From NCBI RefSeq assembly GCF_020023995.1, contig NZ_NRRD01000001.1:310001-374000 (forward strand): DNA of 64,000 nt, in the 5' to 3' direction. This stretch comes from Rhodobacter sp. TJ_12. GTDB lineage: Bacteria > Pseudomonadota > Alphaproteobacteria > Rhodobacterales > Rhodobacteraceae. Below the pieces are notes generated by a model that was not told the origin of the DNA, did no database searches, and saw only the letters and a program-made list of their open reading frames with translations. Position 1 is the stretch's first letter. Each line of letters begins with the position of its first letter. Below are positions 2,577 through 15,971 of this stretch, piece after piece. The translations under genes were made by a program, and so were the position numbers.

Positions 2577-4450
2577 TTCTTCGGCGCGCTATCTGCGTCC
2601 TTCTTGCGGAAGCTGGCGAGGATATTGCCGAACAGATCCGGCCGTTTCCCGTGCACCGTCATGATCGAATATTGCTGGATAAAGGTGATGACGTTGTTCG
2701 CAATCCAGTACAGCACGAGGCCCGAGGCGAAGCTTCCCAGCATGAACATGAAGATCCACGGCATCCAGGCAAAGATCATCGCTTGCGACGGGTCCGTGGG
2801 CGCCGGGTTCAGCTTTTGCTGGAACCACATCGAGATGCCGAGCAAGATCGGCAGGATGCCAAGGCTAAAGATGAAGAACAGCGAGCCCGGCTCCGGCGTG
2901 GCGATCGGCAGAAGGCCGAACAGGTTCAGGATCGACGAGGGATCGGGGGCCGAAAGATCCTTGATCCAGCCCACCCACGGCGCGTGGTAAAGCTCGATCG
3001 TGACGTAGATCACCTTATAGAGCGAGAAGAAGATCGGAATTTGCAGCAAGATCGGCAAACAGCCCGCAGCGGGGTTGATCTTTTCGCGCTTGTAAAGCGC
3101 CATCATCTCGCGCTGCATCGCCTGCTTGTCGTCTTTGACGCGGGCTTTGAGCTCTTCCATCATCGGCTGGACTTCTTTCATCCGCGCCATCGAGATGTAG
3201 GAGGTGCGCGCCAGCGGGAACACGACCATCTTGATGATGACGGTCAGTGCGATGATCGCCCAGCCCATATTGCCCAGCGTGGCATGCAGCCAGTGCAGCA
3301 GGCGGAACATCGGCTTGGTCAGGAAGTAATACCAGCCCCAGTCGATCGAATCGACAAAACGCGTAATCTGCGGGCGGCCTTGGTCGATTTCATCGCCCAA
3401 AAGGCTATCAAGCCAACCGGGGTTGTTTTGGTAATGCGCAATCGCTTCCCATTCCTTGGCCCCGGCAAACAGACGCGTGGTGACCGAGGTGCTGCCCCCA
3501 ACCGCGATTTCGGTCGCGGGCAGGCGGGTCTCGGTTTGATAAAGGTCGTTCGAGGCGACATATTTCACCACCGAGGTGAAGCGGCTCGCTTCGGGGATGA
3601 GGGTCGTCATCCAGTATTTGTCGGTAAAGCCGGTCCAGCCGTTTTCGGTAGCTTGCAGAATTTCGGCCTGACCTTCGCCCGGGACGTCATCCAGCTTCGG
3701 GATCTTTTTGTATTTGATTTCCTGAAGCTGGCCATCGGTCATCCGGACAAGACCTTCGTGCAGCACATAAACCCGCGAGGTTTCCGGAATACCATGGCGG
3801 GCGATGATGCCCCACGGCGCAAGGCTTACCGGCGCGGTGCCATTGTTGGCCACGGTATCGGTGACGGTGAACAGGAATTGCGGATCGACCGCGATGGTGC
3901 GGGTGAACACCTGCCCCGCGCCGTTATCCCATGTCAGGATCAGCGGGGTCTCCGGGGTCAGTTTCGCGCCTTCGGGCGCCGTCCAAAGCGTTTTCGGCCC
4001 CGGCACCTGCGAAGGGGTCAGCCCCGCTAAGGGCGACCAGCCATAAAGCACGTAATAAGGGTTCGAATTCAGCTCGGTGCCGCCGACCGGCGACAACAGA
4101 CGCACCATCGGCGAATCGTCCGACAGCTCGACATGGTAGCTTTTGAGCGAAAGATCATCGAACCGCGCCCCCATCAAAGAGATTGAGCCGGTCAGTTCCG
4201 GGGTGTCAATCTCGATGCGCGGGGCGGTTGCGGCCACCGGCGTGGGCGCGCTGGCTTCGGGCGCGCTGGGCACCACGGTCGGTGCGCTGGCGACCGGTGC
4301 GCTGGGCGTGCCCTCTGCGCTCGTGGCTGCGGTGGTTGCCTCGCCATCCGGTTCAACCGGGGCAGGCGGCGGGAAGAAGACCGTCCATACAACGATGACC
4401 AATGCTGACAGCACGGTCGCGAGCATGAGGTTCTTGTTCTGATTGTCCAT
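2573..4450 (-). CDS. yidC: Membrane protein insertase YidC
   Basis: YidC inserts and folds inner-membrane proteins, alone or with SecYEG. The 625-residue protein has the Gram-negative architecture: an N-terminal membrane anchor (residues about 8-25), an Ala/Pro/Thr-rich linker to about 75, a large periplasmic beta domain to about 350, and the conserved C-terminal five-helix core. The core includes GWAIIALTVIIK, the cytoplasmic hairpin rich in Met and Lys, and NPAAGCLPILLQIPIFF. It heads the yidC-MOSC-engB unit; its stop overlaps the MOSC start by ATGA. The rpmH-rnpA-yidD-yidC order is the standard bacterial arrangement, here interrupted by ttcA and an EAL-like gene. Confidence 0.98.
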   Translation of the reverse strand: MDNQNKNLMLATVLSALVIVVWTVFFPPPAPVEPDGEATTAATSAEGTPSAPVASAPTVVPSAPEASAPTPVAATAPRIEIDTPELTGSISLMGARFDDLSLKSYHVELSDDSPMVRLLSPVGGTELNSNPYYVLYGWSPLAGLTPSQVPGPKTLWTAPEGAKLTPETPLILTWDNGAGQVFTRTIAVDPQFLFTVTDTVANNGTAPVSLAPWGIIARHGIPETSRVYVLHEGLVRMTDGQLQEIKYKKIPKLDDVPGEGQAEILQATENGWTGFTDKYWMTTLIPEASRFTSVVKYVASNDLYQTETRLPATEIAVGGSTSVTTRLFAGAKEWEAIAHYQNNPGWLDSLLGDEIDQGRPQITRFVDSIDWGWYYFLTKPMFRLLHWLHATLGNMGWAIIALTVIIKMVVFPLARTSYISMARMKEVQPMMEELKARVKDDKQAMQREMMALYKREKINPAAGCLPILLQIPIFFSLYKVIYVTIELYHAPWVGWIKDLSAPDPSSILNLFGLLPIATPEPGSLFFIFSLGILPILLGISMWFQQKLNPAPTDPSQAMIFAWMPWIFMFMLGSFASGLVLYWIANNVITFIQQYSIMTVHGKRPDLFGNILASFRKKDADSAPKK

Positions 4451-4487
4451 GGGCGTGCATTTCCCCTGCCGATCCGGGTTCGGCCCG

Positions 4488-4516
4488 GTTCAACAGAAGG
4501 GGCCGCCAAAGGTCAA
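4488..4516 (-). promoter_or_regulatory. Weak sigma-70-like promoter candidate for yidC
   Basis: On the minus strand TTGACC (4516-4511) is followed after 17 bases by TTGAAC (4493-4488), about 40 bases before the yidC start. The -35 is good and the -10 matches only half of TATAAT, so this is tentative. Confidence 0.3.
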
Positions 4517-4587
4517 GCGCTTTCGCGCCCGAAACAGCCCGCAAAGGCGGCACAAGGGGCGATGCGCGCCCTTGTGCAACAGTTCGT

Positions 4588-6180
4588 TCAGGCCCCGCGC
4601 CGCTTGCCGGGTTTGGGCGAAGAAGACAGCCGCGCATCATGGCGCGTCACCCATTGCGTGCTTTCCTCTAGCGGCAGCGGCTGCGAGATTGCCTTGCCTT
4701 GCACGTGGTTACAGCCAAGCTGCGCCAGCATCGCATGTTCGCCAATCGTCGAGACGCCCTCGGCCACGGTTTGCAGGCCCAGCCCCTCCGCGAACGAAAC
4801 GATCGCCGCGACAAGGCGCTGTTGTTCCGGGTCGCGGTCGACATTGGTCACAAAAGACCGATGGATGCGAATCCGCTCTGCCCCGGTGCGGCGCAGCGCA
4901 GCGACCGAAATCGGCCCAGTGCCAAAGCCCGCCAATTCGATCCGGCAGCCGATTTTGGCACATTGCGAGATGTTGCGCAGAATCACCTCGTCATCCAGTT
5001 GCGCGGTCACCTCTTGGTGCAACACCAGCCGCGCACGATTGGGGGTAATATCGAAGCGGTCGAATTCCCATTTCAGCCGGTCGAACATCTTGGGGTCGGT
5101 GACATGGGTCAAACCAAGCGGCAGGCTGACCGGGCCGGGCGGGGTGGGCAGCCGCTCCCAGTCCCGCAAAGCATTGAAACATTGAAACAACATTACTTCG
5201 GCCAGCCGATGTTGCAGCCCGGCAGAGGCAATGGCGGGCAAGATGTCATCTTCTGGCAGGATGCCATGATCGCGCGACAGCCAGCGCGGCATCGCCTGCA
5301 TGCCGGAAATCGTGCCGGTATCGGTGCAGATTTGCGGTTGGAAATAGGCGACGATCCGGCCCTCTTCCAAGGCCGGGCCAATTTCGCCCGCCAGCGCGCT
5401 TTTCGCGCGGGCCGCTTGCTTGATTTCGGGGGTGAAGGCGCGGATCGCACCGGGGCCATTGCGGCGAGCTTCATCCGCGGCCGCTTCGGCAGCTTGCAAG
5501 ATTGCGGCGCCGGTCAAGGCCGGTGCGCGGCTCATCAGGCAAAAGCCGACATGGCTTGTGGTGTTGATCGAACGCCCCGAAATCGAGAAAGGCGCATCAC
5601 AGGCGCTTTGCAGTCGCGCCGAAAGCTGGATCATGCTTTCCAGATCGGGGCGTTGCGTCGGGGTCAGCACCACCGCGTAACGGTCGCGTTCGATCATCAC
5701 GATTCGGTCGGAATTGCGCAGCACGTCGCGGGTGCGTTCACTGAAGGCCTGAAGGAATTCATCGAATTCGCTGCGGCTCATTTGCCGCATCAAGCTGGCC
5801 GTATCGTCAAGCCCGACCACAAGGCAGGCCGTGCCGCGCCCCGAATCGAGTGCTTCGGCCAAGGTGTCATCCAGCATCGTCTCGGCTTCGGCGCGCTGCG
5901 GCACCGGGCGGTCGTCTTGTGCGTCGTCTTCCTCCACCGGCTGTGCCATCGGGCGGCTCATCCAGGCCACGATAATCGCGGTGAAGCCCACCAGCGTCAT
6001 GCCTTCCAGCCCGAACCAAAGCCCTGCCAGCGCGGCGGCGGGCAAAAAGGCGACCATCTCGCGGCGCAGCAAGATTGGCCCGGAGAGTTTCACCCGTTTC
6101 TTGGTTTCGGATTTCGGCAGTTTCAGTTTCTTGACGGATTTCGACGGCTTGGCTGCGTTCTGCCCCGCGGATTTCTTCAT
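4588..6180 (-). CDS. Membrane-anchored degenerate GGDEF/EAL-domain protein
   Basis: A 530-residue protein: a Lys-rich N-terminus, two likely membrane helices (about residues 35-75), a GGDEF-like fold without the GGDEF motif, then an EAL-like domain in the C-terminal half. In the EAL domain the signature is QAMPR instead of EALxR, the DDFG loop is LAGFG, and the KIDxSF segment is IRIHRSF. The Mg-binding and catalytic acids of c-di-GMP phosphodiesterases are thus missing, and I expect no diguanylate cyclase or phosphodiesterase activity. It may bind c-di-GMP or a protein partner. The ATG ending at 6180 has GAGG upstream; a TTG codon at 6228 would add 16 residues and is less likely. It lies between ttcA and yidC. 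Confidence 0.85.
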   Translation of the reverse strand: MKKSAGQNAAKPSKSVKKLKLPKSETKKRVKLSGPILLRREMVAFLPAAALAGLWFGLEGMTLVGFTAIIVAWMSRPMAQPVEEDDAQDDRPVPQRAEAETMLDDTLAEALDSGRGTACLVVGLDDTASLMRQMSRSEFDEFLQAFSERTRDVLRNSDRIVMIERDRYAVVLTPTQRPDLESMIQLSARLQSACDAPFSISGRSINTTSHVGFCLMSRAPALTGAAILQAAEAAADEARRNGPGAIRAFTPEIKQAARAKSALAGEIGPALEEGRIVAYFQPQICTDTGTISGMQAMPRWLSRDHGILPEDDILPAIASAGLQHRLAEVMLFQCFNALRDWERLPTPPGPVSLPLGLTHVTDPKMFDRLKWEFDRFDITPNRARLVLHQEVTAQLDDEVILRNISQCAKIGCRIELAGFGTGPISVAALRRTGAERIRIHRSFVTNVDRDPEQQRLVAAIVSFAEGLGLQTVAEGVSTIGEHAMLAQLGCNHVQGKAISQPLPLEESTQWVTRHDARLSSSPKPGKRRGA

Positions 6181-6254
6181 CTCGGCCCTCGGTGATGCGG
6201 TGAAGGGAGCCCCTTCTTTCGCGCCCAAGCTAGGCCGGTTTGGTCAGCGACTGG

Positions 6255-7148
6255 TTAAAGACTATCACGCAAGTTGGGGATGTTTTCGCTCAAATCCGAG
6301 AAAGATTTTTCTGGCCCGTCTATTTCGCGCATAAGCCCGGCGAAATCGAACACGCGCGGGTCGCACAGATGCGATGGACGCACATTCATCAGTGCGCGCG
6401 CCATCACCTGCCGCCGCCCGGGGCTGCGCGCTTCCCAGCCATCCAGGATCTGTTTGACCTGCACCCGTTGCAGCCCGTCTTGGCTGCCGCACAGATTGCA
6501 CGGGATGACCGGATATTGCATCCCGCGCGCGTATTTTTCGCAATCGGCCTCGGCCACGAAGGCCAGCGGACGATATACGAACAGGTCTTTTTCCTCATTC
6601 ACAAGCTTCGGCGGCATAGTGGCCAGCCGTCCGCCGTGAAACAGGTTCATGAAAAAGGTTTCCAAGATATCGTCGCGGTGGTGGCCCAGCACCACGGCAG
6701 AGCAGCCCTCTTCGCGGGCGATTCGATACAGATTGCCCCGCCGCAGCCGCGAACACAGGCTGCAATAGGTCTGCCCTTCGGGGATTTTCTCTTTCACCAC
6801 GGAATAGGTGTCTTGATATTCGATCCGGTGTTCGATCCCCATCCGGGTCAGAAATTCGGGCAGCACCGTGGCCGGAAAGCCCGGCTGCCCCTGATCCAGA
6901 TTGCAGGCCAGCAAATCCACCGGCAAAAGACCGCGCCATTTCAATTCGGTCAAAACGGCCAGCAGGGTGAAGCTGTCTTTGCCGCCGGACAGGCACACCA
7001 GCCAGCGCGCGCCGGGTTCGACCATTTGATAGGTTTCAAGCGCTTCGCGGGTTTCGCGCAAGAGCCGTTTGCGCAGCTTCTTGAATTCGGTGCTGCCGGG
7101 GGCACCACTTAACAGCGGCGGCAGCGCAGCCTCGTCTTCGTCAAACAT
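6255..7148 (-). CDS. ttcA: tRNA 2-thiocytidine synthetase TtcA
   Basis: TtcA thiolates cytidine 32 in the anticodon loop of some tRNAs using ATP and an Fe-S cluster. The 297-residue protein has the PP-loop LSGGKDS at residues 53-59, a CSLC pair (Cys129, Cys132) and a further PCNLCG cysteine motif in the last third, the expected cluster ligands. A longer reading from 7217 exists, but the ATG ending at 7148 has AAGGA 9 bases upstream and overlaps the yidD stop by 8 bases, the usual operon spacing here. It is the last member of rpmH-rnpA-yidD-ttcA. A likely substrate, tRNA-Arg(ACG), is encoded at 9904. Confidence 0.93.
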
Positions 7149-7413
7149 GGGTGTGATCCTTGCCGCGGCAGCGTGCATCATGTTCGGGGTCCGCCCCCGG
7201 AACAGGGTCGTAGCCATGCCCGCCCCAAGGGTTGCAGCTTATCAAGCGTTTCGCAGCCAACCATCCGCCCTTCAACGCGCCATGGCGTTCCAGCGCCTCA
7301 AGCGCGTAGACCGAACAGGTGGGCTGATAGCGGCAGCTATTGCCCAGCCAAGGCGACAGAACCAACCGGTAAAACCGCACCGGCAGGGCAAGAAGATGGG
7401 CGAAAGGGCTCAT
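7141..7413 (-). CDS. yidD: Membrane protein insertion efficiency factor YidD
   Basis: YidD is a small amphipathic protein that assists membrane protein insertion with YidC. The 90-residue sequence has the family core: [15 protein letters not shown] and a [18 protein letters not shown] stretch. A longer frame starts upstream inside rnpA, but the ATG ending at 7413 overlaps the rnpA stop by ATGA and is preceded by GGAGGGGG, so it is the start. It is co-transcribed with rnpA and ttcA. Confidence 0.95.
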
Positions 7414-7910
7414 TTCCCCCTCCGACGGCCTTTCTGGCCTGGCTGGGGCGGGCGCGGTTTCATTGTGCGCCCGGCGTGAATGTCCTTGATCGCGCGGGCA
7501 AAATCTTCTTGCAGCGCAGCAAAGTCGCGGCTGGCCGTGGCCCCGGGGCGCCCCACCAAAACATAGTCCCATCCGGGCAGGCCCAAATCGGGCAAGCCCA
7601 GACGCGCCACTTCGCGCAGGCGGCGTTTGGCACGGTTGCGCGCCACGGCGTTCCCCAGCTTCTTTGAGCAGGTGAAGCCGATTCGGATCAGATCTGCGGG
7701 CACGGCTTCGGCGGCGCTACGCTGGCGCGCCTGAAGCAAGAAACCGGGCAGGGCCAACCGTTGGGCTGAGGCAGCACGCAAAAAATCCGCCCGTTGCTGC
7801 AACACGATGATTCGTGGTGCAGAGCTTCGGGACGGATAAACGGAAACCGCCGGGGCGCTTCCCGCGCTCCGACCAGTGAGGTCAGTCGCAGGAGCCTCCG
7901 GCGGTGTCAT
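7410..7910 (-). CDS. rnpA: Ribonuclease P protein component
   Basis: RnpA binds the RNase P RNA and helps it cut tRNA precursors. The basic RNP-binding motif is clear: [18 protein letters not shown] in the middle of the protein, with the ADFLRA segment before it. At 166 residues it is longer than the usual 110-130, mainly from an N-terminal extension of about 30 residues, rich in Ser/Pro/Ala, and a basic C-terminal tail. The ATG ending at 7910 lacks a strong ribosome-binding site, so a later start is possible. It follows rpmH by 20 bases, the near-universal pairing, and overlaps yidD by ATGA. Confidence 0.95.
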
Positions 7911-7930
7911 GCGTTCAGGCCGTGTCTGCC

Positions 7931-8065
7931 TTACGCCGACAGAACCTTACGGCCCTTGGCGCGGCGAGCGTTGAGGACCTTGCGGCCGCCTTTGGTCGCC
8001 ATGCGGGCGCGGAAGCCGTGGCGGCGGGCGCGCACGAGTTTCGACGGCTGGTAAGTGCGTTTCAT
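7931..8065 (-). CDS. rpmH: 50S ribosomal protein L34
   Basis: The 44-residue protein begins [20 protein letters not shown] and ends in the basic [14 protein letters not shown] region, which is diagnostic of L34. A longer frame extends to 8164, but the ATG ending at 8065 has GGAG 8 bases upstream and gives the standard length. It is the first gene of the rpmH-rnpA-yidD-ttcA unit and has a good promoter at 8143-8171. Confidence 0.98.
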
Positions 8066-10215: not shown

Positions 10216-12948
10216 ATGGCCGACAAGAAGAGTTCGAGTTTGACCGCGCTTGTTTTGGCTATCGCTTATGCCGTTGTTGGTGTTGTCTACATCACGACCA
10301 GCGACTGGCTTTTGGGCAAATTCGTGCCCGAGCTTCAACAATACCAGCTGTTCCAGACCCTCAAGGGGGGGGCCTCTATCGGCGTGACGGCTTTCGGGCT
10401 GTGGCTGATCCTGCGGTTCGCCCTTGGTCGGCTTGAAAAGGCGCTTGCAGAGACGCGCTTGGCGGAAAGTCGGTTGCGTGGCGCGCTGCTGGCCGCCGGC
10501 GGAAACTGCTGGCGCGCGGAGCTGCAAAAAGACCAGACCCTGATGGTACACACGCGCGGCAGCCCGATGAAAGGGATCGATATCGATACCCGGGTCAGCT
10601 ACGAAGAAAGTGTTCTGCGCGCCCAAATTCACCCCGATGACCGGCCTGCCTATGGGGCTATGATCGACGCGATCAAGGCTGGCGCGCCAGACATTCCCGG
10701 CGGGATCTTTCGGCTTTTGACCGCACAAAACGATTGGCGTTGGGTCAAGATCGTCCCCGATCCGGAAAGCCGCAAGAACGGGCCGCCCGGGGCGATTTAC
10801 GGGGTGACGCTTGACATCACCGCCTTGCAGGAAACCACGCGCGCGCTGGCTGATGTCATCGCCGGGGGCGAGTTGGGCACTTGGCGGCATGATCTGCGCA
10901 CCGACCGGCTTTATGTGAATGCGCGCTGGGCCGAGATGCTGGGCTATACGCTTGCGGAGCTTGATCCGCAGATGATCGATGATTGGCGCGCGCTGGTGCA
11001 CCCCGACGATATGCGCGAGCTTGAAGCCGATCATGAACACCAGTTCCAGACGCGCGATTATTTCTTCGCCTATGAATTTCGGATGCGCCACAAGGATGGG
11101 CATTGGGTCTGGGTTTTGTCGCGCGGTAAGGCGGTTGAAACCTCTGAAACCGGCGAGGCGCTGGTTTTGTCGGGCGTTCACATCGATATTTCCCGGCGCA
11201 AGGCGCTGGAAGCGGAACTGCTTGAGAAAAGCGACTTCCTGCAACGGCTGACCGAGACCTCGGTTTCGGGGATCTTGTCGTTGGATGAAGAGGGCACGGT
11301 GGTTTTTGCCAACCTTGAGGCGCAGCAGATTCTGGATACGACCGGCGCCGGGCTGGTGGGGCGGCGGCAGGATGAAATCGGCTGGGTGCAGCGGGGCAGC
11401 CTTGAACCGGAAACCGGCGTGCCGCTGGAACGGTTGCGCCGCAGCCGCGCCGTGATCCGCGACATGCGCATGAGCCTGTCTTTGCCCGAGGGCCCGGATC
11501 GGGAAATCTCGGTCAATGCCGCGCCGATGGAAACGCCCGGCGGGCCGGTGCAAATCGTCTGTTCGGTCACGGATATCACCCAGCGTCTGATCGATGAACG
11601 GCGCTTGGCATTGGCGGCGGAAGAGGCCCGCTTCGCCGCAAGCCACGATATGCTGACCGGGCTGCCGAACCGGGAATTGTTCGGGGCGCATGTGGCCGCG
11701 ATGGTGCGGCAGGCCAAATCCGAAGGCCGGCTTTTGGCGCAGGTTTTTTTGAGCATCGACCATTTTCAGCAGATCAAGGATCGGTTCGGTCCGATCCTTG
11801 GCGACCGACTGATCTGCATGATCGCCGAGCGGCTTGATGGGGTGCGCAGCGGCGCGCAGCTTCTGGCGCGCGTCGGCGGAGAAGAGTTCACCTTCCTCGA
11901 CAAGCTGCAAACCGCCGAAGAGGCCGCGACCTTTGCCGCCGTGCTGGCCCGCGCCTTTGAAAGCCCGTTCGAGGTGGATGGACAGACGGTTTACCTAAGC
12001 GCATCGATGGGGGTGTCGATCTACCCAATGGATGCGCTAAGCGCCGAGGAGATGTGGCTCAATGCCGATCTGGCGATGTATGAGGCCAAGGCGCTGGGCG
12101 GCAATTGCTCGGTGCCCTTCACCGCGCAATTGCGCGACCGCGTCGCGCGGGCCGCCAAGATCGGCCAATCACTGCAACGCGCGATTCGGGATCGTGCCTT
12201 TGAGCTTGTGTTGCAGCCGCAGGTCAGCCTGAAACAAGAGCGCGAATTGGTCGGGGCCGAGGTTTTGGTGCGTTGCACCGATCCCGACCTTGCCGGGATC
12301 GGCCCCGCCGACTTCATGCCCGTGGCGGAAAAGACCGGTCTGATCCGGCAGATCGATTTGTTGGTCGTCGATCTTGCAGGGCTGTTCATGGCCGAGTTGC
12401 GCGGGCGTGGTCTTGGGCTGCGCCTGTCGATCAACCTGTCGCCCGACAGCTTGCGGCAGGTTGGTTTTGGCGAAGAGCTGTTGGCGCATCTGGCGGCGGC
12501 AGGGCTTGGGTCCGAAGATGTTCAATTCGAACTGACCGAGGGTGCCGTGGTCGATCTTAAATCCGATGCGCGCGGGGCCATCGCGCTGCTGCTGGAAGCC
12601 GGGTTCGAATTGTCGGCCGATGATTTTGGCACCGGCTATTCTTCCCTGAGCTATCTGCAAAAGCTCAATCTGGGCGAGTTGAAGATCGATCAAAGCTTCG
12701 TATCGCGTCTGGGTCTGGGGGAGGATGCCTCGGATGCGATCGTGCTGGCCACACTGGCGATGGCACGGGCGCTTGATCTGCGCACGGTGGCCGAGGGGAT
12801 CGATACCGAAGAACAAGCGGCGTGGTTGTGCGCGCAGGGCTGTGACGTGGGGCAAGGCTACTTGTTCGGGCGCCCCGTCCCGCCCGAGAAATTCATCGAA
12901 AGCTACTTGCTGGTGCCGCTGGCGCGGGATCAGGTGGCGGCGCTTTAG
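10216..12948 (+). CDS. Membrane-anchored PAS-GGDEF-EAL c-di-GMP regulator
   Basis: A 910-residue protein: two membrane helices (about residues 8-28 and 50-70), a short coiled segment, about three PAS-type sensor domains (roughly 95-455), then GGDEF and EAL domains. The cyclase signature is GGEEF at 554-558. The EAL domain reads EVLVR with Glu682 and keeps INLS, ELTE, DDFGTGYSS, KIDQSF and AEG, so both the diguanylate cyclase and the phosphodiesterase may be active. No RxxD inhibitory site is visible before GGEEF. It should make or break c-di-GMP in response to a PAS-sensed signal. It stands alone after the tRNA gene; 235 bases of leader carry its promoter. The ribosome-binding site is weak. 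Confidence 0.92.
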   Translation: MADKKSSSLTALVLAIAYAVVGVVYITTSDWLLGKFVPELQQYQLFQTLKGGASIGVTAFGLWLILRFALGRLEKALAETRLAESRLRGALLAAGGNCWRAELQKDQTLMVHTRGSPMKGIDIDTRVSYEESVLRAQIHPDDRPAYGAMIDAIKAGAPDIPGGIFRLLTAQNDWRWVKIVPDPESRKNGPPGAIYGVTLDITALQETTRALADVIAGGELGTWRHDLRTDRLYVNARWAEMLGYTLAELDPQMIDDWRALVHPDDMRELEADHEHQFQTRDYFFAYEFRMRHKDGHWVWVLSRGKAVETSETGEALVLSGVHIDISRRKALEAELLEKSDFLQRLTETSVSGILSLDEEGTVVFANLEAQQILDTTGAGLVGRRQDEIGWVQRGSLEPETGVPLERLRRSRAVIRDMRMSLSLPEGPDREISVNAAPMETPGGPVQIVCSVTDITQRLIDERRLALAAEEARFAASHDMLTGLPNRELFGAHVAAMVRQAKSEGRLLAQVFLSIDHFQQIKDRFGPILGDRLICMIAERLDGVRSGAQLLARVGGEEFTFLDKLQTAEEAATFAAVLARAFESPFEVDGQTVYLSASMGVSIYPMDALSAEEMWLNADLAMYEAKALGGNCSVPFTAQLRDRVARAAKIGQSLQRAIRDRAFELVLQPQVSLKQERELVGAEVLVRCTDPDLAGIGPADFMPVAEKTGLIRQIDLLVVDLAGLFMAELRGRGLGLRLSINLSPDSLRQVGFGEELLAHLAAAGLGSEDVQFELTEGAVVDLKSDARGAIALLLEAGFELSADDFGTGYSSLSYLQKLNLGELKIDQSFVSRLGLGEDASDAIVLATLAMARALDLRTVAEGIDTEEQAAWLCAQGCDVGQGYLFGRPVPPEKFIESYLLVPLARDQVAAL

Positions 12949-13041: not shown

Positions 13042-14283
13042 ATGCGCACCAGTGAAACCCATCCCTTGCAGATTGCCGAAGTGTCGGCCGGGCCCGGTCT
13101 GGGCCGGATCGGGCTAACCTTTTGCCCCGGAAAATATGATCGCGCCGCCTATTCCGGGGCCTGGGCGCGTGATCTGGACCTGGATCTGGATGTCATCGCG
13201 GCTTGGGGGGCACGGGTGGTGGTGACGCTGGTGGAACCCGCCGAGCTTGCCGCGCTTAAGGTGCCGGGGCTCGGCGCGGCGGTTCATGCGCGCGGCATGA
13301 TCTGGCAGCATTTGCCGATTGCCGATTATTCTGTGCCCGATGATTTGTTCGAGGTGCGCTGGGCCAGTGCGGGCCGGGGACTGCGCGACATCTTGCGTGC
13401 CGGGCAAGATATCTTGGTGCATTGCAAGGGGGGGCTGGGCCGTGCGGGCATGATTGCGGCGCGGCTTTTGGCCGAATTGGGGATGGAGCCGAAAGCGGCG
13501 ATCCGTGCGGTGCGCACCGCCCGCCCCGGGGCCATCGAAACGCCTTCGCAATTGGCGCTGGTGCGGGGCACGCGGGCGATTGACGAACCGGCCGTGCTGG
13601 ATACCGCCGCGCTGACGCGGATCGGCGGGCAATTGGGCACCAATCCGGGCGGCGTTTGGGCGGATGCGGCAGGGCGGCGCTATTACGTCAAGGAGCTTGA
13701 GAGCCCGCCGCATGCCCGCAATGAACGTTTGGCCGCGGCGCTTTACCGGTTGGCGGGGGCACCTGTCCTGACCTATCTGCCCACCGCTAAGCCCACGCAG
13801 GTCGCAACGCTTTTCGTCGATCTGGAAAAGACCTCTGTTGCGCAATTGACGCAAGACGAGCGCCGGGCCGCGCAGCGCTGGCTGGGCGTGCATGCATGGC
13901 TGGCCAATTGGGATGCCGCAGGCGCCTTGGGCGACAATCAGGGGGTGGTGCAGGGGGTGGTGACCACGCTTGATGTTGGCGGCGCGCTCGAATTTCGGGC
14001 CACGGGCGATCCGAAGGGCCGGGCCTTTGGTCCCGAGGTGGGCGAGATCGACCGGCTTCGCGCCGATGCCGATAACCCCCATGCGGTCAAGCTTTTCGGG
14101 GATATGGAGGCGCAGGCGGTGGCACAGGCAATCGACGTGGTCACCCGTTTGCCCGAGGCTGCAATCGCGCGCGTGGTGGCCGAATATGGCCGGAGCGAGA
14201 AGTTGGCCGCCAAGCTGATCGCGCGTCAACAGGACATGGCACGTCGCCTTACAGCGCCAGAAGCTTTGGCACTTGATCGGTGA
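13042..14283 (+). CDS. Dual-specificity phosphatase domain fused to a kinase-like domain
   Basis: A 413-residue protein with two parts. Residues about 20-190 look like a CDKN3-type dual-specificity/tyrosine phosphatase: the P-loop HCKGGLGR has Cys128 and Arg134, and an Asp in PIADYSVPDD could be the general acid. Residues about 195-413 resemble the HipA-like kinase domain I recall from phage MuF-type head proteins and ADP-ribosyltransferase toxins. They have a GTNPGG glycine loop, YYVK (candidate ATP-binding Lys), ANWDxxGxxxDN (catalytic Asp and Asn) and LDVGG (metal-binding Asp). The phosphatase call is firm; the kinase call is by motif memory. A GAGG lies just before the ATG. Its last 35 bases overlap the end of draG on the opposite strand. 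Confidence 0.75.
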   Translation: MRTSETHPLQIAEVSAGPGLGRIGLTFCPGKYDRAAYSGAWARDLDLDLDVIAAWGARVVVTLVEPAELAALKVPGLGAAVHARGMIWQHLPIADYSVPDDLFEVRWASAGRGLRDILRAGQDILVHCKGGLGRAGMIAARLLAELGMEPKAAIRAVRTARPGAIETPSQLALVRGTRAIDEPAVLDTAALTRIGGQLGTNPGGVWADAAGRRYYVKELESPPHARNERLAAALYRLAGAPVLTYLPTAKPTQVATLFVDLEKTSVAQLTQDERRAAQRWLGVHAWLANWDAAGALGDNQGVVQGVVTTLDVGGALEFRATGDPKGRAFGPEVGEIDRLRADADNPHAVKLFGDMEAQAVAQAIDVVTRLPEAAIARVVAEYGRSEKLAAKLIARQQDMARRLTAPEALALDR

Positions 14284-15115
14284 TTTCGTCCTGCACCTGC
14301 GTGTCCAGCACCTCCAGCCAGCGCATCGGCAGCGATTCCAACCCCCAAAGCGCGCCCGCCAGCATGCCCGCAAGCGCGCCCGTCGTATCGGCATCGCCGC
14401 CTTGATTGACGGTGGACACCACCGCCTCTTCAAAGCTGTCGGCGGCCAGAACAAAATGCAAAACTGTCTGCATTGTCTCGACCACGAAGGCCGAGCATTG
14501 GCCGCGATAGGGCGCAAACCGAAAAATCCGGTGCTGCTCCACCAAGGCGGCGCCCGCGCGCTCTATGGCGGGTTTGCCCCCGCCTTCGATCAGCCCGTGC
14601 ACCATTTGCACCAAGGCCAGACAGGCGGCATCGGATAGCGGGTTATGATGCGTGGTATGCGCCTGCACCCGCGCCCAATCCGCCGCCCGGTCCGGCACGC
14701 CCAGCGTCGCCAGCGCCACCGGCAAAATCCGCATCGCGGCGCCATTGCCCGCATCGTCTTCCATTTCCGGCCCGGCAACCGATCCATCGCGCAAGAACCG
14801 CTTGATCCCGCGCCGACAGGTATTGCCCACATCGGCGGGTTTGGTGGCCAGCCAAGCGGCGAATTCTTCACACAGATCGCGCGCATCCAGCCCGCCGCAC
14901 CGAATAAGCGAGCGCCCAAGCGCCAGCGACATTTGCGTGTCATCGGTGACCGCGCCGGGGGGCAACCGCAGCCAGCCGCCCCCGGTGATCTCGCGATGCA
15001 CGCCTAGTTGTGCGGCGATCTCGCGCGCGGTCATGAATTCGGTCGTCGCGCCCAAAGCATCGCCAAGCGCAAAGCCCAAATAGGCGGCCAAGGCCCTGTC
15101 TTGACAGTCAGACAT
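14249..15115 (-). CDS. draG: ADP-ribosyl-[dinitrogen reductase] hydrolase DraG
   Basis: DraG removes ADP-ribose from Arg of nitrogenase Fe protein and so reactivates it when ammonium runs out or light returns. The 288-residue sequence is close along its whole length to what I remember of Rhodospirillum rubrum DraG. It has the binuclear Mn-site motifs TDDT at residues 57-60 and GGDADTTGA at 239-247, plus DVGNTCRRGI and DAGNGAAMR. Its start lies inside the end of draT (8-base overlap), so the two are co-translated. The 3' end converges on, and overlaps, the phosphatase-kinase gene. No nif structural genes are in the window. Confidence 0.96.
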   Translation of the reverse strand: MSDCQDRALAAYLGFALGDALGATTEFMTAREIAAQLGVHREITGGGWLRLPPGAVTDDTQMSLALGRSLIRCGGLDARDLCEEFAAWLATKPADVGNTCRRGIKRFLRDGSVAGPEMEDDAGNGAAMRILPVALATLGVPDRAADWARVQAHTTHHNPLSDAACLALVQMVHGLIEGGGKPAIERAGAALVEQHRIFRFAPYRGQCSAFVVETMQTVLHFVLAADSFEEAVVSTVNQGGDADTTGALAGMLAGALWGLESLPMRWLEVLDTQVQDEITDQVPKLLAL

Positions 15116-15929
15116 CGTCGATCCTCACCCGATAGGCCCCGCCGATGGCCAGAAATTCGCGTTCCCCCTGCAACAGCCGCGTCGGCAGCAGTCCGGGGTA
15201 AGACAGCACCTTTGCCACCGGCACGGCCACTGTCAGAATCTTGTCGCCAAAGCAATCCGCCACCTCCCGCTCGGACGAGAACGAGACAAGATTGTTCAGC
15301 CGGATCACCGCCTCGCGCTTGCCGATCCGTTCCAAAACGGCATGATCTTCCAGCGCATTGCTGCCCCGGTAAAGCGTCAAATGCGTTTGCCCGGCAAAAG
15401 CGAAGCGCGCCGCGATCCATTGTGCCGCCTCATACAGCAAATCAAGCTGTGCCCAGATCGCATTGGCATGAAACCCGCTTTGCATCTTTTCACTGGTATA
15501 AACCTGCCATGCCGAACAGCTCATGCAGGCAAGCACTTCCTTGTGAAAGCATGGCGCGATGCCAAAGCGGCTTTCCACCCAGCCTTTAAGCACTGCACCT
15601 TCGGGCCCGTTGCTGTCAAAGCTCCAGCCTTGCAGCAACCGCAGGAAAGATGACCGAAACGGCCGCGTGCCGCCCGGTGCCGTTTGCTGCTCCGGGTCGA
15701 TGCCGAACATCGCCTGCATATAGCTGAGAAAGGCCGCCCCGGCTTCGGCGCCGGTTTCGGCCTGCGCGAGCATGGTAAAAAGCGCTGGGTTCATTTCGCG
15801 CACGCCATGGATATGCAGTGCCTCGGGGGCGGCGTTGAAGCCGCAACTGGCCACCCATTGCGACGACCGCCCGACGCGGTTGGTCGAATGGCCCAAGCCC
15901 GGTTTGCGTTGTGTGCCCTGTTCGCTCAT
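15108..15929 (-). CDS. draT: NAD+-dinitrogen-reductase ADP-D-ribosyltransferase DraT
   Basis: DraT transfers ADP-ribose from NAD+ to an Arg of nitrogenase Fe protein, switching nitrogen fixation off in response to ammonium or darkness. The 273-residue protein matches the family pattern: HIHGVREMN, RSSFLRLLQGW, SNGPEGAVLKGWVESRFG, and an R-S-ExE layout (LTLYRGSN, SFSSER, GEREFL). Length is close to the 276 of R. rubrum DraT. A second in-frame ATG ends at 15941; neither has a clear ribosome-binding site. PII proteins GlnB/GlnK and AmtB usually control it, and they are not in this window. Confidence 0.95.
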   Translation of the reverse strand: MSEQGTQRKPGLGHSTNRVGRSSQWVASCGFNAAPEALHIHGVREMNPALFTMLAQAETGAEAGAAFLSYMQAMFGIDPEQQTAPGGTRPFRSSFLRLLQGWSFDSNGPEGAVLKGWVESRFGIAPCFHKEVLACMSCSAWQVYTSEKMQSGFHANAIWAQLDLLYEAAQWIAARFAFAGQTHLTLYRGSNALEDHAVLERIGKREAVIRLNNLVSFSSEREVADCFGDKILTVAVPVAKVLSYPGLLPTRLLQGEREFLAIGGAYRVRIDDV

Positions 15930-15971
15930 GGCCCGGATCATGCGCCGGGCGCGCGCCGCTGTGAAGGCGGC

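Follow-up and report, generated by a model that had tools for sequence, protein, structure and literature searches.

A module that joins a cysteine phosphatase to a kinase-like domain was found almost always to accompany draT in the genomes tested, across distant proteobacterial families, and its occurrence beside or together with draT points to an undescribed extra layer of the ADP-ribosylation switch of nitrogenase. The products of draT and draG form the reversible ADP-ribosylation pair for the nitrogenase Fe protein, a textbook case of bacterial protein regulation by this modification, and the system is not known to have a phosphatase or kinase component. Among the papers listed in literature searches, as judged by title, opening of the abstract or selected passages, none describes a phosphatase or kinase partner of DraT/DraG; one report, which by its title deals with the Rhodobacter capsulatus draTG region, may already describe or mutate the ORF studied here (Masepohl et al., 1993). 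The gene studied here lies in a window of 64,000 nucleotides from Rhodobacter sp. TJ_12 (positions 310,001 to 374,000 of contig NZ_NRRD01000001.1, assembly GCF_020023995.1), where phosphatase and kinase-like domain are fused. We tentatively propose, from sequence and association, that this fusion would assist the DraT/DraG cycle as an accessory kinase and phosphatase, whose substrate is most likely derived from ADP-ribose.

The layout of the locus is given in Table 1. A preliminary description of this DNA, made from the sequence alone, had noted a phosphatase joined to a second motif-bearing region and converging on draG with a short coding overlap, and each of these features was confirmed: the ORF starts with ATG and encodes 413 amino acids, the second region carries GTNPGG (residues 199-204), YYVK (214-217), ANWD (288-291), DN (298-299) and LDVGG (310-314), and the overlap spans 35 bp. 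The interval given in that description (13042-15929) misses the last 12 bp up to 15941, where the most upstream of the possible draT starts lies. The ORF represents more than chance, because orthologues with 70-82% identity occur in six other genomes of the genus, each beside draG.

Table 1. Features of the draTG-linked fusion locus, in window coordinates
Feature	Position	Strand	Basis
413-aa fusion of a DSP/PTP-SAK/CDKN3-like phosphatase and a kinase-like domain	13042..14283	+	ORF, family matches, orthologues
Phosphatase half, residues 1-180; H127-C128-(X)5-R134, candidate general acid D95	13042..13581	+	profile matches, conservation
CKGGLGR signature, codons C128 to R134	13423..13443	+	ORF, alignment
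Putative kinase-like domain, residues 185-402; K217, E228, N289-X-D291, N299, D311-X-G-G	13594..14247	+	alignments
N289-W-D291 ... N299 ... D311, candidate catalytic and metal-binding motif	13906..13974	+	alignments
Tail-to-tail overlap of fusion ORF and draG, 35 bp	14249..14283		coordinates
draG, ADP-ribosyl-[dinitrogen reductase] hydrolase	14249..15115	-	TIGR02662 414 bits (cut-off 337.05), PF03747 224.5 bits
draT, dinitrogenase reductase ADP-ribosyltransferase	15108..15941	-	PF07357 332 bits (cut-off 25)

The N-terminal half belongs to the DSP/PTP cysteine phosphatases of the rhodanese-phosphatase (R-P) superfamily, since it exceeds the curated cut-offs of three Pfam profiles, PTP-SAK (PF22784, 37.3 bits, cut-off 27, E 3.5e-9), Tc-R-P (PF22785, 34.7 bits, cut-off 27, E 2.7e-8) and CDKN3 (PF05706, 32.5 bits, cut-off 20.7, E 8.6e-8), and carries both the HC-X5-R loop and an upstream Asp. 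Its nearest solved relatives by sequence are small protein tyrosine phosphatases ('ShufPTP', 4.5e-13; a Sulfolobus PTP, 1.3e-8; CDKN3, 2.5e-7). Among 79 phosphatase-bearing loci, H127, C128 and R134 are conserved in 78 and D95 in 77, the remaining one and two, respectively, falling outside the alignment coverage, and mean column identity across distant proteobacterial families is 79% (22 chosen rows). Judging from these invariant catalytic residues, the phosphatase half is highly likely to be active. Four plasmid-borne relatives with 47-54% identity have an ADP-ribosylglycohydrolase (ARG) in the same protein or in an overlapping gene; of the other matches among those listed (40 of 60), the fusion linked to draTG has 71% identity, a solitary Thauera gene 58% and all the rest at most 39%. 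Two of the ARG-coupled plasmid loci (L305 and L306) have a WYL protein and a PD-(D/E)XK nuclease as neighbours, with a helicase gene in L305 as well. In a phosphatase tree the pair- and ARG-associated sequences split from 11 generic ones at 97/99, with two long-branch generic rows standing apart, in an analysis whose bootstrap had not settled and in which the placement of long-branch rows, chiefly L026, L027 and L308, cannot be relied on.

For the C-terminal ~218 amino acids taken separately, searches of Pfam, NCBIfam and PHROG gave no match, and PDB sequences gave none that is significant. Across a 70-row alignment, domain positions G15, K33, E44, N105, D107, N115, D127, G129 and G130 are invariant, and mean column identity across distant proteobacterial families is 72% (22 chosen rows). 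In three alignments the invariant K217, E228, D291, N299 and D311 follow the order expected of a kinase (β3 Lys, αC Glu, catalytic Asp...Asn, metal-binding Asp). Invariance of N289 and D291 is not independent evidence, because the scan pattern requires A-[WF]-[LT]-[AGS]-N-[WF]-D and so partly imposes them; the search patterns left the Lys, the Glu, N299 and D311 free to vary.

Weak profile matches of the second domain concentrate on the HipA kinases. HipA_C is matched by 15 of the 70 members at E<=0.1 (best 8.1e-4) and HipA_2 by three, while every other family is matched by at most two; the best HipA match shown scores 18.9 bits and none seen reaches the Pfam cut-off (PF07804, 30.5 bits), and a Pfam search with the window's own second domain gave no HipA match. 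A profile built from 159 second-domain sequences, short or stop-containing ones having been dropped, aligns with HipA_C over 49 columns at P 7.9e-5; the lowest P among 60 column shuffles was 0.12. This similarity is confined to the N-lobe: neither the global alignment (P 0.19) nor an hhalign comparison of the C-lobe alone, the N-X-D...N...D region (P 0.43), is significant. Searches of PDB sequences with 14- and 70-row profiles of the domain gave nothing significant (best E 0.13 and 0.24, a match to ribosomal protein L23 that was judged to be chance). A separate match, of Legionella Effector protein B to positions 9-51 of the second-domain profile (E 0.7), is a lead only. The profile comparison with HipA that had been suggested at the outset gives similarity in the N-lobe and leaves the C-lobe unmatched, and the residue order together with the HipA matches suggests that the second half, as first proposed, probably adopts a kinase fold.

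Relatives were collected in a genome scan; of the 134 that were confirmed, the analysis kept the 80 most similar to the window and left out the 54 weaker ones. Phosphatase and second domain occur together in 79 of these 80 loci, 21 times fused and 58 times as adjacent genes. Beside draT/draG the pair is found in three arrangements: convergent with draG, a layout shared by 10 of the 80 loci, the members of the genus and a single plasmid; in a Thalassolituus MAG (L111), as a co-directional draT-phosphatase-second domain series with a 12-nt gap and a divergent draG; and, in Rhodoblastus acidophilus (L130), divergent from draT. In most scan loci neither draT nor draG lies within the flanks, phosphatase and second domain are separate genes, and a DraG-like match is absent from the flanks in 69 of 80 (tblastn with the window DraG, E<=1e-4). 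The initial picture of a partner of draG is therefore too narrow. Clustering of conserved neighbours over the 80 loci found nothing conserved beyond the pair outside draTG.

The arrangements also bear on the suggestion that the convergent transcripts, by overlapping, regulate each other independently of the protein. The fusion overlaps draG by 35-46 bp in all seven members of the genus; at other draG-adjacent loci the overlap is 4 bp or is replaced by a gap of at least 5 bp, such regulation is impossible where the genes are unlinked, and conservation lies in the protein sequence. Antisense regulation as a general mechanism was rejected on these grounds and is extremely improbable; the overlap is a detail of the genus. 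A scan for sigma-54/NifA promoters upstream gave no clear signal (5 of 78 loci at <=2 mismatches against a 6.3% background); the 3 of 78 at <=1 mismatch (background 0.64%) and the 4 of 78 with a TGT-N10-ACA site (background 1.9%) are too few to build on, and the window's own gene has no site better than 3 mismatches.

The association with draT extends to the level of whole genomes. Among 101 genomes around that of the window, the full-length fusion occurs in seven, which are exactly the seven with DRAT and DraG over cut-off. DRAT was found in 75 of 77 pair-bearing genomes tested, against 29 of 398 in a sample of the phylum. The 75 comprise 48 of 48 and 17 of 19 from genome searches and 10 more with draT inside the locus; the first search set covered 50 of the 80 loci, made up of 41 isolates whose locus lacks draT plus nine chosen MAGs, and the second a further 19, namely L111 and 18 whose locus lacks draT; outside the 77 stand L126, L130 (same strain as L081) and L134, the last of which has the second domain but neither phosphatase nor DRAT. 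The surveys overlap, because L055 and L063, two of the 10 loci with draT inside, are species that recur in the genus survey as G002 and G012, while L102 and G103 are one genome. The two pair genomes that lack DRAT, L087 and L113, are both MAGs, and the contigs that carry the pair measure 5.4 and 4.2 kb, so that misbinning is a possible cause. Co-occurrence and synteny together make a functional link of the pair with DraT/DraG very probable, as first supposed.

This association runs in one direction. In the phylum sample, where the phosphatase was searched for in the 29 DRAT-positive genomes and the second domain in all 398, the second domain exceeds 350 bits in three genomes, all of them with DRAT and phosphatase; weaker matches of a long-protein form occur in two DRAT-negative genomes (G797 and G239), and the DRAT-positive genomes hold three strong phosphatase matches and one weak one (G501, 43 bits). 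The pair is absent from 26 of the 29 sampled draT genomes, so the draT switch does not need it, and the second domain alone, found in phages, in L134 and, in weaker form, in DRAT-negative sample genomes, is not tied to draT. Since draT is frequent among nifH-positive genomes (25 of 38 in the phylum sample, where nifH was scored), co-occurrence of the pair with draT partly reflects nitrogen fixation. None of the 13 nifH-positive, DRAT-negative genomes holds the second domain, against 3 of 29 DRAT-positive ones, a difference that does not separate the two groups.

That frequency lends something to the view that the pair is a passenger of mobile nitrogen-fixation gene sets, correlated with draT through ecology or transfer and serving an unrelated function such as phage defence. 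The lack of conserved neighbours outside draTG would fit, as would the company of the phosphatase family, which is placed with predicted anti-viral ARG systems by Iyer et al. (2022; PMC9503650) and has the WYL and nuclease neighbours in L305 and L306. However, sequence conservation of both proteins is high even across distant proteobacterial families, linkage to draT/draG takes three different forms, draT co-occurs in the genome although it is usually not near the pair, and the window protein has no PADLOC match. On balance a passenger role is unlikely.

The second domain has a further set of relatives in phages, as the preliminary description had noted in mentioning MuF head proteins and ADP-ribosyltransferases (ARTs). 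Phage relatives show 28-37% identity by tblastn (E down to 2e-16), 17 of 19 records covering at least 80% of the query, and viral loci show 36-51% among the 80 retained of 401 confirmed; homology thus extends over the full domain and places it in a phage-borne family. These relatives sit in large phage or prophage proteins with ART, NUDIX or portal domains, near minor head (MuF-like) or capsid genes. A C-terminal ART accompanies the domain in four of six phage, prophage or plasmid proteins scanned, within a set of eight proteins, the largest one (L050) having been left out for length. NUDIX accompanies it in 7 of 10 viral proteins examined, which is no rate because the ten were hand-picked from 80 and five had a NUDIX motif already seen; by motif count, 11 of the 80 carry one.

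Taken together, fusion and adjacency make it likely that both halves act on the same substrate, and the proposed accessory role may be spelled out as follows. The cysteine phosphatase and the kinase-like enzyme would add and remove phosphate at some step of the ADP-ribosylation cycle. Candidate substrates are the ADP-ribosyl group carried by the Fe protein, ADP-ribose after its release by DraG, or a sugar adduct that ADP-ribose leaves. We favour an ADP-ribose-derived substrate over one particular protein because ADP-ribose chemistry is common to the other contexts of both halves; argued from association, this assignment is plausible but falls short of an even chance.

The main rival of an ADP-ribose-derived substrate is a protein phospho-switch, in which the kinase-like half and the phosphatase act on DraG, DraT, NifH or PII and set the speed at which nitrogenase is turned on or off. 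A phosphorylation-based layer of this kind was what the preliminary description had put forward, with a response of the protein to ADP-ribose as a conceivable alternative. The phospho-switch draws on the same draT linkage, on the CDKN3 and PTP matches of the phosphatase half and on the weak matches to HipA, whose founding member is a protein kinase, yet it leaves unexplained both the ARG coupling of the phosphatase's near relatives and the ART and NUDIX company of the second domain in phages; about one chance in three is a fair reckoning.

Fructosamine and ribulosamine 3-kinases, with their partner phosphatases, act by phosphorylating a sugar, which then falls off. By analogy, the pair could clean up or deglycate the sugar-phosphate adducts that ADP-ribose, once released or cleaved by NUDIX, leaves on protein, the phosphatase stripping the terminal phosphate and the kinase phosphorylating the remaining sugar; this overlaps with the accessory role, except that nothing would be regulated. 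The NUDIX and ART partners of the second domain and the ARG partners of the phosphatase agree with clean-up, as does the proposal, in section 3.8 of PMC9503650, that R-P phosphatases process ADP-ribose freed by ARG domains, whereas no fructosamine-kinase family is among the Pfam matches and the module is missing from 26 of the 29 draT genomes sampled; clean-up seems improbable.

Within the favoured reading, that of an ADP-ribose-derived substrate, a specific, speculative and improbable version is that the kinase phosphorylates the ADP-ribosyl mark, giving a phospho-ADP-ribosyl-arginine that DraG or a host ARG cannot remove, and that the phosphatase unlocks it. If so, phages with ART and kinase would lock the modifications they place on the host, fusions of ARG and phosphatase would be the reply by which the host unlocks them, and nitrogen fixers would combine lock and unlock in a second layer of the nitrogenase switch, slower than the first. 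The shared domains tie this switch to two phage-conflict gene sets, the ARG-phosphatase systems and the virion ART proteins. The module, which occurs in tractable organisms including Rhodobacter capsulatus (L063), also offers a direct clue to what a widespread domain, unnamed in the profile libraries searched here, does chemically.

Compared with the DraT/DraG system as it is generally known, the window has both genes, adjacent and typical in profile scores and gene order, and the phosphatase and kinase-like domain are an addition. The second domain has in common with HipA-like kinases (PF07804, PF20613) the K...E...N-X-D...N...D order and N-lobe profile similarity; it differs in the motif, which is N-X-D-X-H-X-X-N in 16 of 18 HipA_C sequences and N-W-D-X7-N, without the His, in the window, in a D-to-N spacing of 8 rather than 5, and in C-lobes that do not align significantly. 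With CDKN3/DSP-type bacterial PTPs the phosphatase half has in common the Cys-X5-Arg loop, the Asp and the Pfam CDKN3 and PTP-SAK matches, but it has a fused or adjacent partner and an association with draT. The kinases described for phage virion 'polyvalent' proteins are of Ser/Thr/Tyr type, lack the C-terminal subdomain and have a conserved His and Asp, unlike the second domain (PMC5512222); the word HipA is absent from the main text of PMC5512222 and PMC9503650, and the portions of both consulted hold no description of this domain. Outside the pair, the nearest relatives of the phosphatase, whose genes are fused to that of an ARG or overlap it, resemble the ARG-centred R-P systems of Iyer et al. 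(2022); section 3.8 of that work does not name the kinase-like domain as a partner. Those systems were searched for by the absence of a genomically coupled ART, whereas here DraT is present, with draT following draG in the window and found in 75 of 77 pair genomes, and the ARG is a separate protein, the convergent DraG encoded next to the fusion on the opposite strand.

The draT and draG genes and the convergent 413-residue open reading frame of the preliminary description were all confirmed in the window, as was the 35-bp overlap. The overlap measures 35-46 bp in seven genus members, but at the other draG-adjacent loci it shrinks to 4 bp or the genes are 5-60 bp apart (Rhodovulum visakhapatnamense, where the frame is broken early, is set apart). 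Because its length varies outside the genus, the antisense overlap, which had been thought possibly to let the two transcripts affect each other, is not the conserved feature of this locus. A promoter scan upstream of the pair found no clear sigma-54/NifA signature. In this genome nifH lies on another contig (C17) than draT; of the 25 sampled genomes that have both DRAT (Pfam PF07357) and a full nifH, 22, for example G494 (contig C108) and G103 (contig C106), have draT within ~0.2-2.2 kb of nifH on the same contig.

Positions of the window genes and of compared loci
Feature	Source	Position	Strand	Remark
draT	window	15108-15941	-	
draG	window	14249-15115	-	overlapped tail-to-tail by fusion ORF, 35 bp
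Fusion ORF, 413 aa	window	13042-14283	+	convergent with draG
PAS-GGDEF-EAL protein gene	window	10216-12948	+	93 bp upstream of fusion
Second-domain frame	Rhodovulum visakhapatnamense (L133)	5001-5656		stops early at 5375, homology runs on
Second domain + NUDIX protein	L045	1-2268	-	
Second domain + NUDIX protein	L046	1-2166	-	
NUDIX + kinase-like domain + C-terminal ART, ~1516 aa	Pseudomonas juntendi plasmid p2463-1 (L048)	3423-7973		
Lone phosphatase	Thauera sp. K11 plasmid pTX1 (L303)	6001-6558		
Phosphatase beside ~240-aa protein	viral contig (L302)	4001-5567		
Phosphatase beside ~240-aa protein	L008	409-2010		
Phosphatase/ARG cluster	Leisingera plasmid (L305)	925-8519		
Phosphatase/ARG cluster	Fuscovulum plasmid (L306)	885-8501		

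The full-length fusion was found in 7 of 101 genomes (the source genome and 100 relatives), and the same seven, and no others, contain DRAT and a DraG that scores over the equivalog cut-off; the fusion adjoins draG in every one. At that level, all three are absent from eleven further genomes labelled as the same genus. In four more genomes, from the genus, family or class (L009-L011 and L013), one open frame encodes both the phosphatase half (35-57% identity) and an ADP-ribosylglycohydrolase (ARG) domain, the latter confirmed in L009 by PF03747 (9.7e-76).

Beyond the genus, named genome contigs were scanned once with a second-domain profile of 14 rows; 134 relatives were confirmed, and the best 80 were kept. 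A phosphatase 62-84% identical to that of the window precedes the second domain in 79 of these 80 loci, as one frame in 21 and as adjacent separate genes in 58, the sole exception (L134) being a second domain without phosphatase; what is conserved is therefore the gene pair, of which the fusion is one variant. Among the genera with such loci are Rhodoblastus, Rhodopila, Methylocapsa, Allochromatium, Methylomonas, Zoogloea, Rubrivivax, Derxia, Marinobacterium and Shewanella. The early stop in R. visakhapatnamense reflects a frameshift, an error in the sequence or degradation of this copy.

The proposed link to the draTG switch finds support well outside this locus. Whole-genome searches found DRAT in 48 of 49 genomes from the scan (L134, without the phosphatase, is the exception) and in 17 of 19 others (two MAGs are the exceptions), and draT is inside the locus itself in 10 further cases, so that 75 of 77 pair-bearing genomes contain draT. 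By comparison, a phylum sample had DRAT in 29 of 398 genomes, and in 25 of the 38 with nifH over the cut-off; against this probability of about two thirds for draT given nifH, a value from the phylum sample rather than the scan genomes, 75 of 77 still exceeds expectation by a wide margin. Genomes that are related do not count as independent cases, and nitrogen fixation forms a background common to them; how many lineages are effectively independent is uncertain, so we state no single probability for the co-occurrence. In the phylum sample, where the phosphatase was searched in DRAT-positive genomes, the second domain exceeded 350 bits in three genomes, all with DRAT and an adjoining phosphatase. 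Weaker forms in two DRAT-negative genomes (G797, 145 bits; G239, 25 bits), in frames of more than 1300 codons, look like the phage/NUDIX kind. Since the pair was present in only 3 of the 29 sampled draT genomes, the implication runs one way: as far as tested, the pair implies draT but draT does not imply the pair, and, with 26 of 29 lacking it, the module is optional for draT genomes.

In 63 of the 75 genomes the flanking sequence examined around the pair (up to 5 kb, less on short contigs) contained no draT match. The remainder fall into three arrangements. In the first (10 of the 75 genomes), the pair is convergent with draG; across all surveys, this layout occurs in the genus, Rhodovulum, Fuscovulum, Phaeovulum, Blastochloris and an Acetobacteraceae MAG, and on a plasmid of Rhodobacter sp. 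CZR27, whose record alone among 72,556 for plasmids gave a DraT match at 1e-20. The second, in a Thalassolituus MAG, has draT, phosphatase and second domain codirectional, with 12 nt from draT to the phosphatase start and draG divergent, and in the third, in Rhodoblastus acidophilus, the pair is divergent from draT.

The suggestion that the second half is a kinase held in part. For residues 185-402 by themselves, Pfam, NCBIfam and PHROGs gave no match and PDB sequences no significant one; the window's copy likewise had no match in Pfam scans of a 70-row alignment, which gave HipA_C in 15 rows and HipA_2 in 3 at E<=0.1, with any other family in at most two. Positions G15, K33, E44, N105, D107, N115, D127, G129 and G130 are invariant in this alignment, N105 and D107 being partly imposed by the search patterns and the others not. 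Against a HipA_C profile made from 18 sequences, profile-profile comparison gave P 7.9e-5 over 49 N-lobe columns, a value reached in 0 of 60 column shuffles, whereas the catalytic half did not align significantly and all HipA matches were below the Pfam cut-off. For these two reasons the domain is described as kinase-like but not assigned to HipA.

The suggested association of this domain with phages and ADP-ribosyltransferases (ARTs) proved sound. Relatives were found in 19 phage records and 401 viral contigs (80 kept), and four of six phage or plasmid proteins scanned, all large, carry a C-terminal ART; NUDIX, portal and DUF2213 domains are other partners in large viral proteins. Proteins that combine the kinase-like domain with NUDIX also occur in two small-genome alphaproteobacteria (L045 and L046); for the first there is, in addition, a weak match to actin-fragmin kinase (E 0.025). 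The gene for the P. juntendi plasmid protein adjoins a minor head protein gene in a plasmid-borne phage head gene set.

Profile and sequence matches identify the first half as a PTP-SAK/CDKN3-type cysteine phosphatase. Among plasmid records, the closest are the draTG-linked CZR27 fusion (71% identity) and the Thauera gene standing alone (58%; 57.5%), followed by four at 47-54%, all fused to or overlapping an ARG gene; other plasmid phosphatases reached at most 39% among 40 of 60 records listed. In a tree of 45 phosphatases, a split at 97/99 set pair- and ARG-associated members apart from 11 generic ones; two further generic sequences, on long branches, fall on the pair/ARG side and are unreliable. 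The Thauera gene has IS66 transposase genes on one side and a gene for a PEP-CTERM protein on the other; its plasmid is classed as conjugative. In L302 and L008, the same phosphatase family (62% identical) is beside a ~240-residue protein with no Pfam match; the two such proteins have a Cys- and Gln-containing stretch in common, and possibly belong to the 'ARPP' family named by Iyer et al. (2022; PMC9503650).

Co-occurrence, linkage, domain contexts and residue conservation are direct observations, and they suggest a model in which both halves would be enzymes, with the phosphatase and the kinase-like half acting oppositely on one substrate that would belong to the ADP-ribosylation cycle. An ADP-ribose-derived group is favoured as this substrate, because ADP-ribose is the common thread of the other contexts of both halves and because phages and nitrogen fixers must have different protein targets. 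Nearly as likely is that DraG, DraT, NifH or PII is phosphorylated directly.

ARG-centred systems have been interpreted as counter-measures to viral ADP-ribosylation; a phosphatase is present in a little over 55% of their neighbourhoods, and ARG-freed ADP-ribose is suggested to undergo further processing (Iyer et al., 2022). The Leisingera and Fuscovulum plasmid clusters (AAA ATPase, WYL protein, phosphatase/ARG protein and PD-(D/E)XK nuclease, then a helicase gene in the former and with a HEPN gene inside the latter) resemble a layout reported there. ARG-phosphatase coupling is already published, with DraG-DraT (DraG itself being an ARG) as a reference case, and the partner list in section 3.8 of that paper has no kinase-like domain (Iyer et al., 2022). 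The phosphatase half belongs to this published ADP-ribose-system family; here it is attached to the nitrogenase switch and combined with a kinase-like domain whose other occurrences are in proteins of phage virions.
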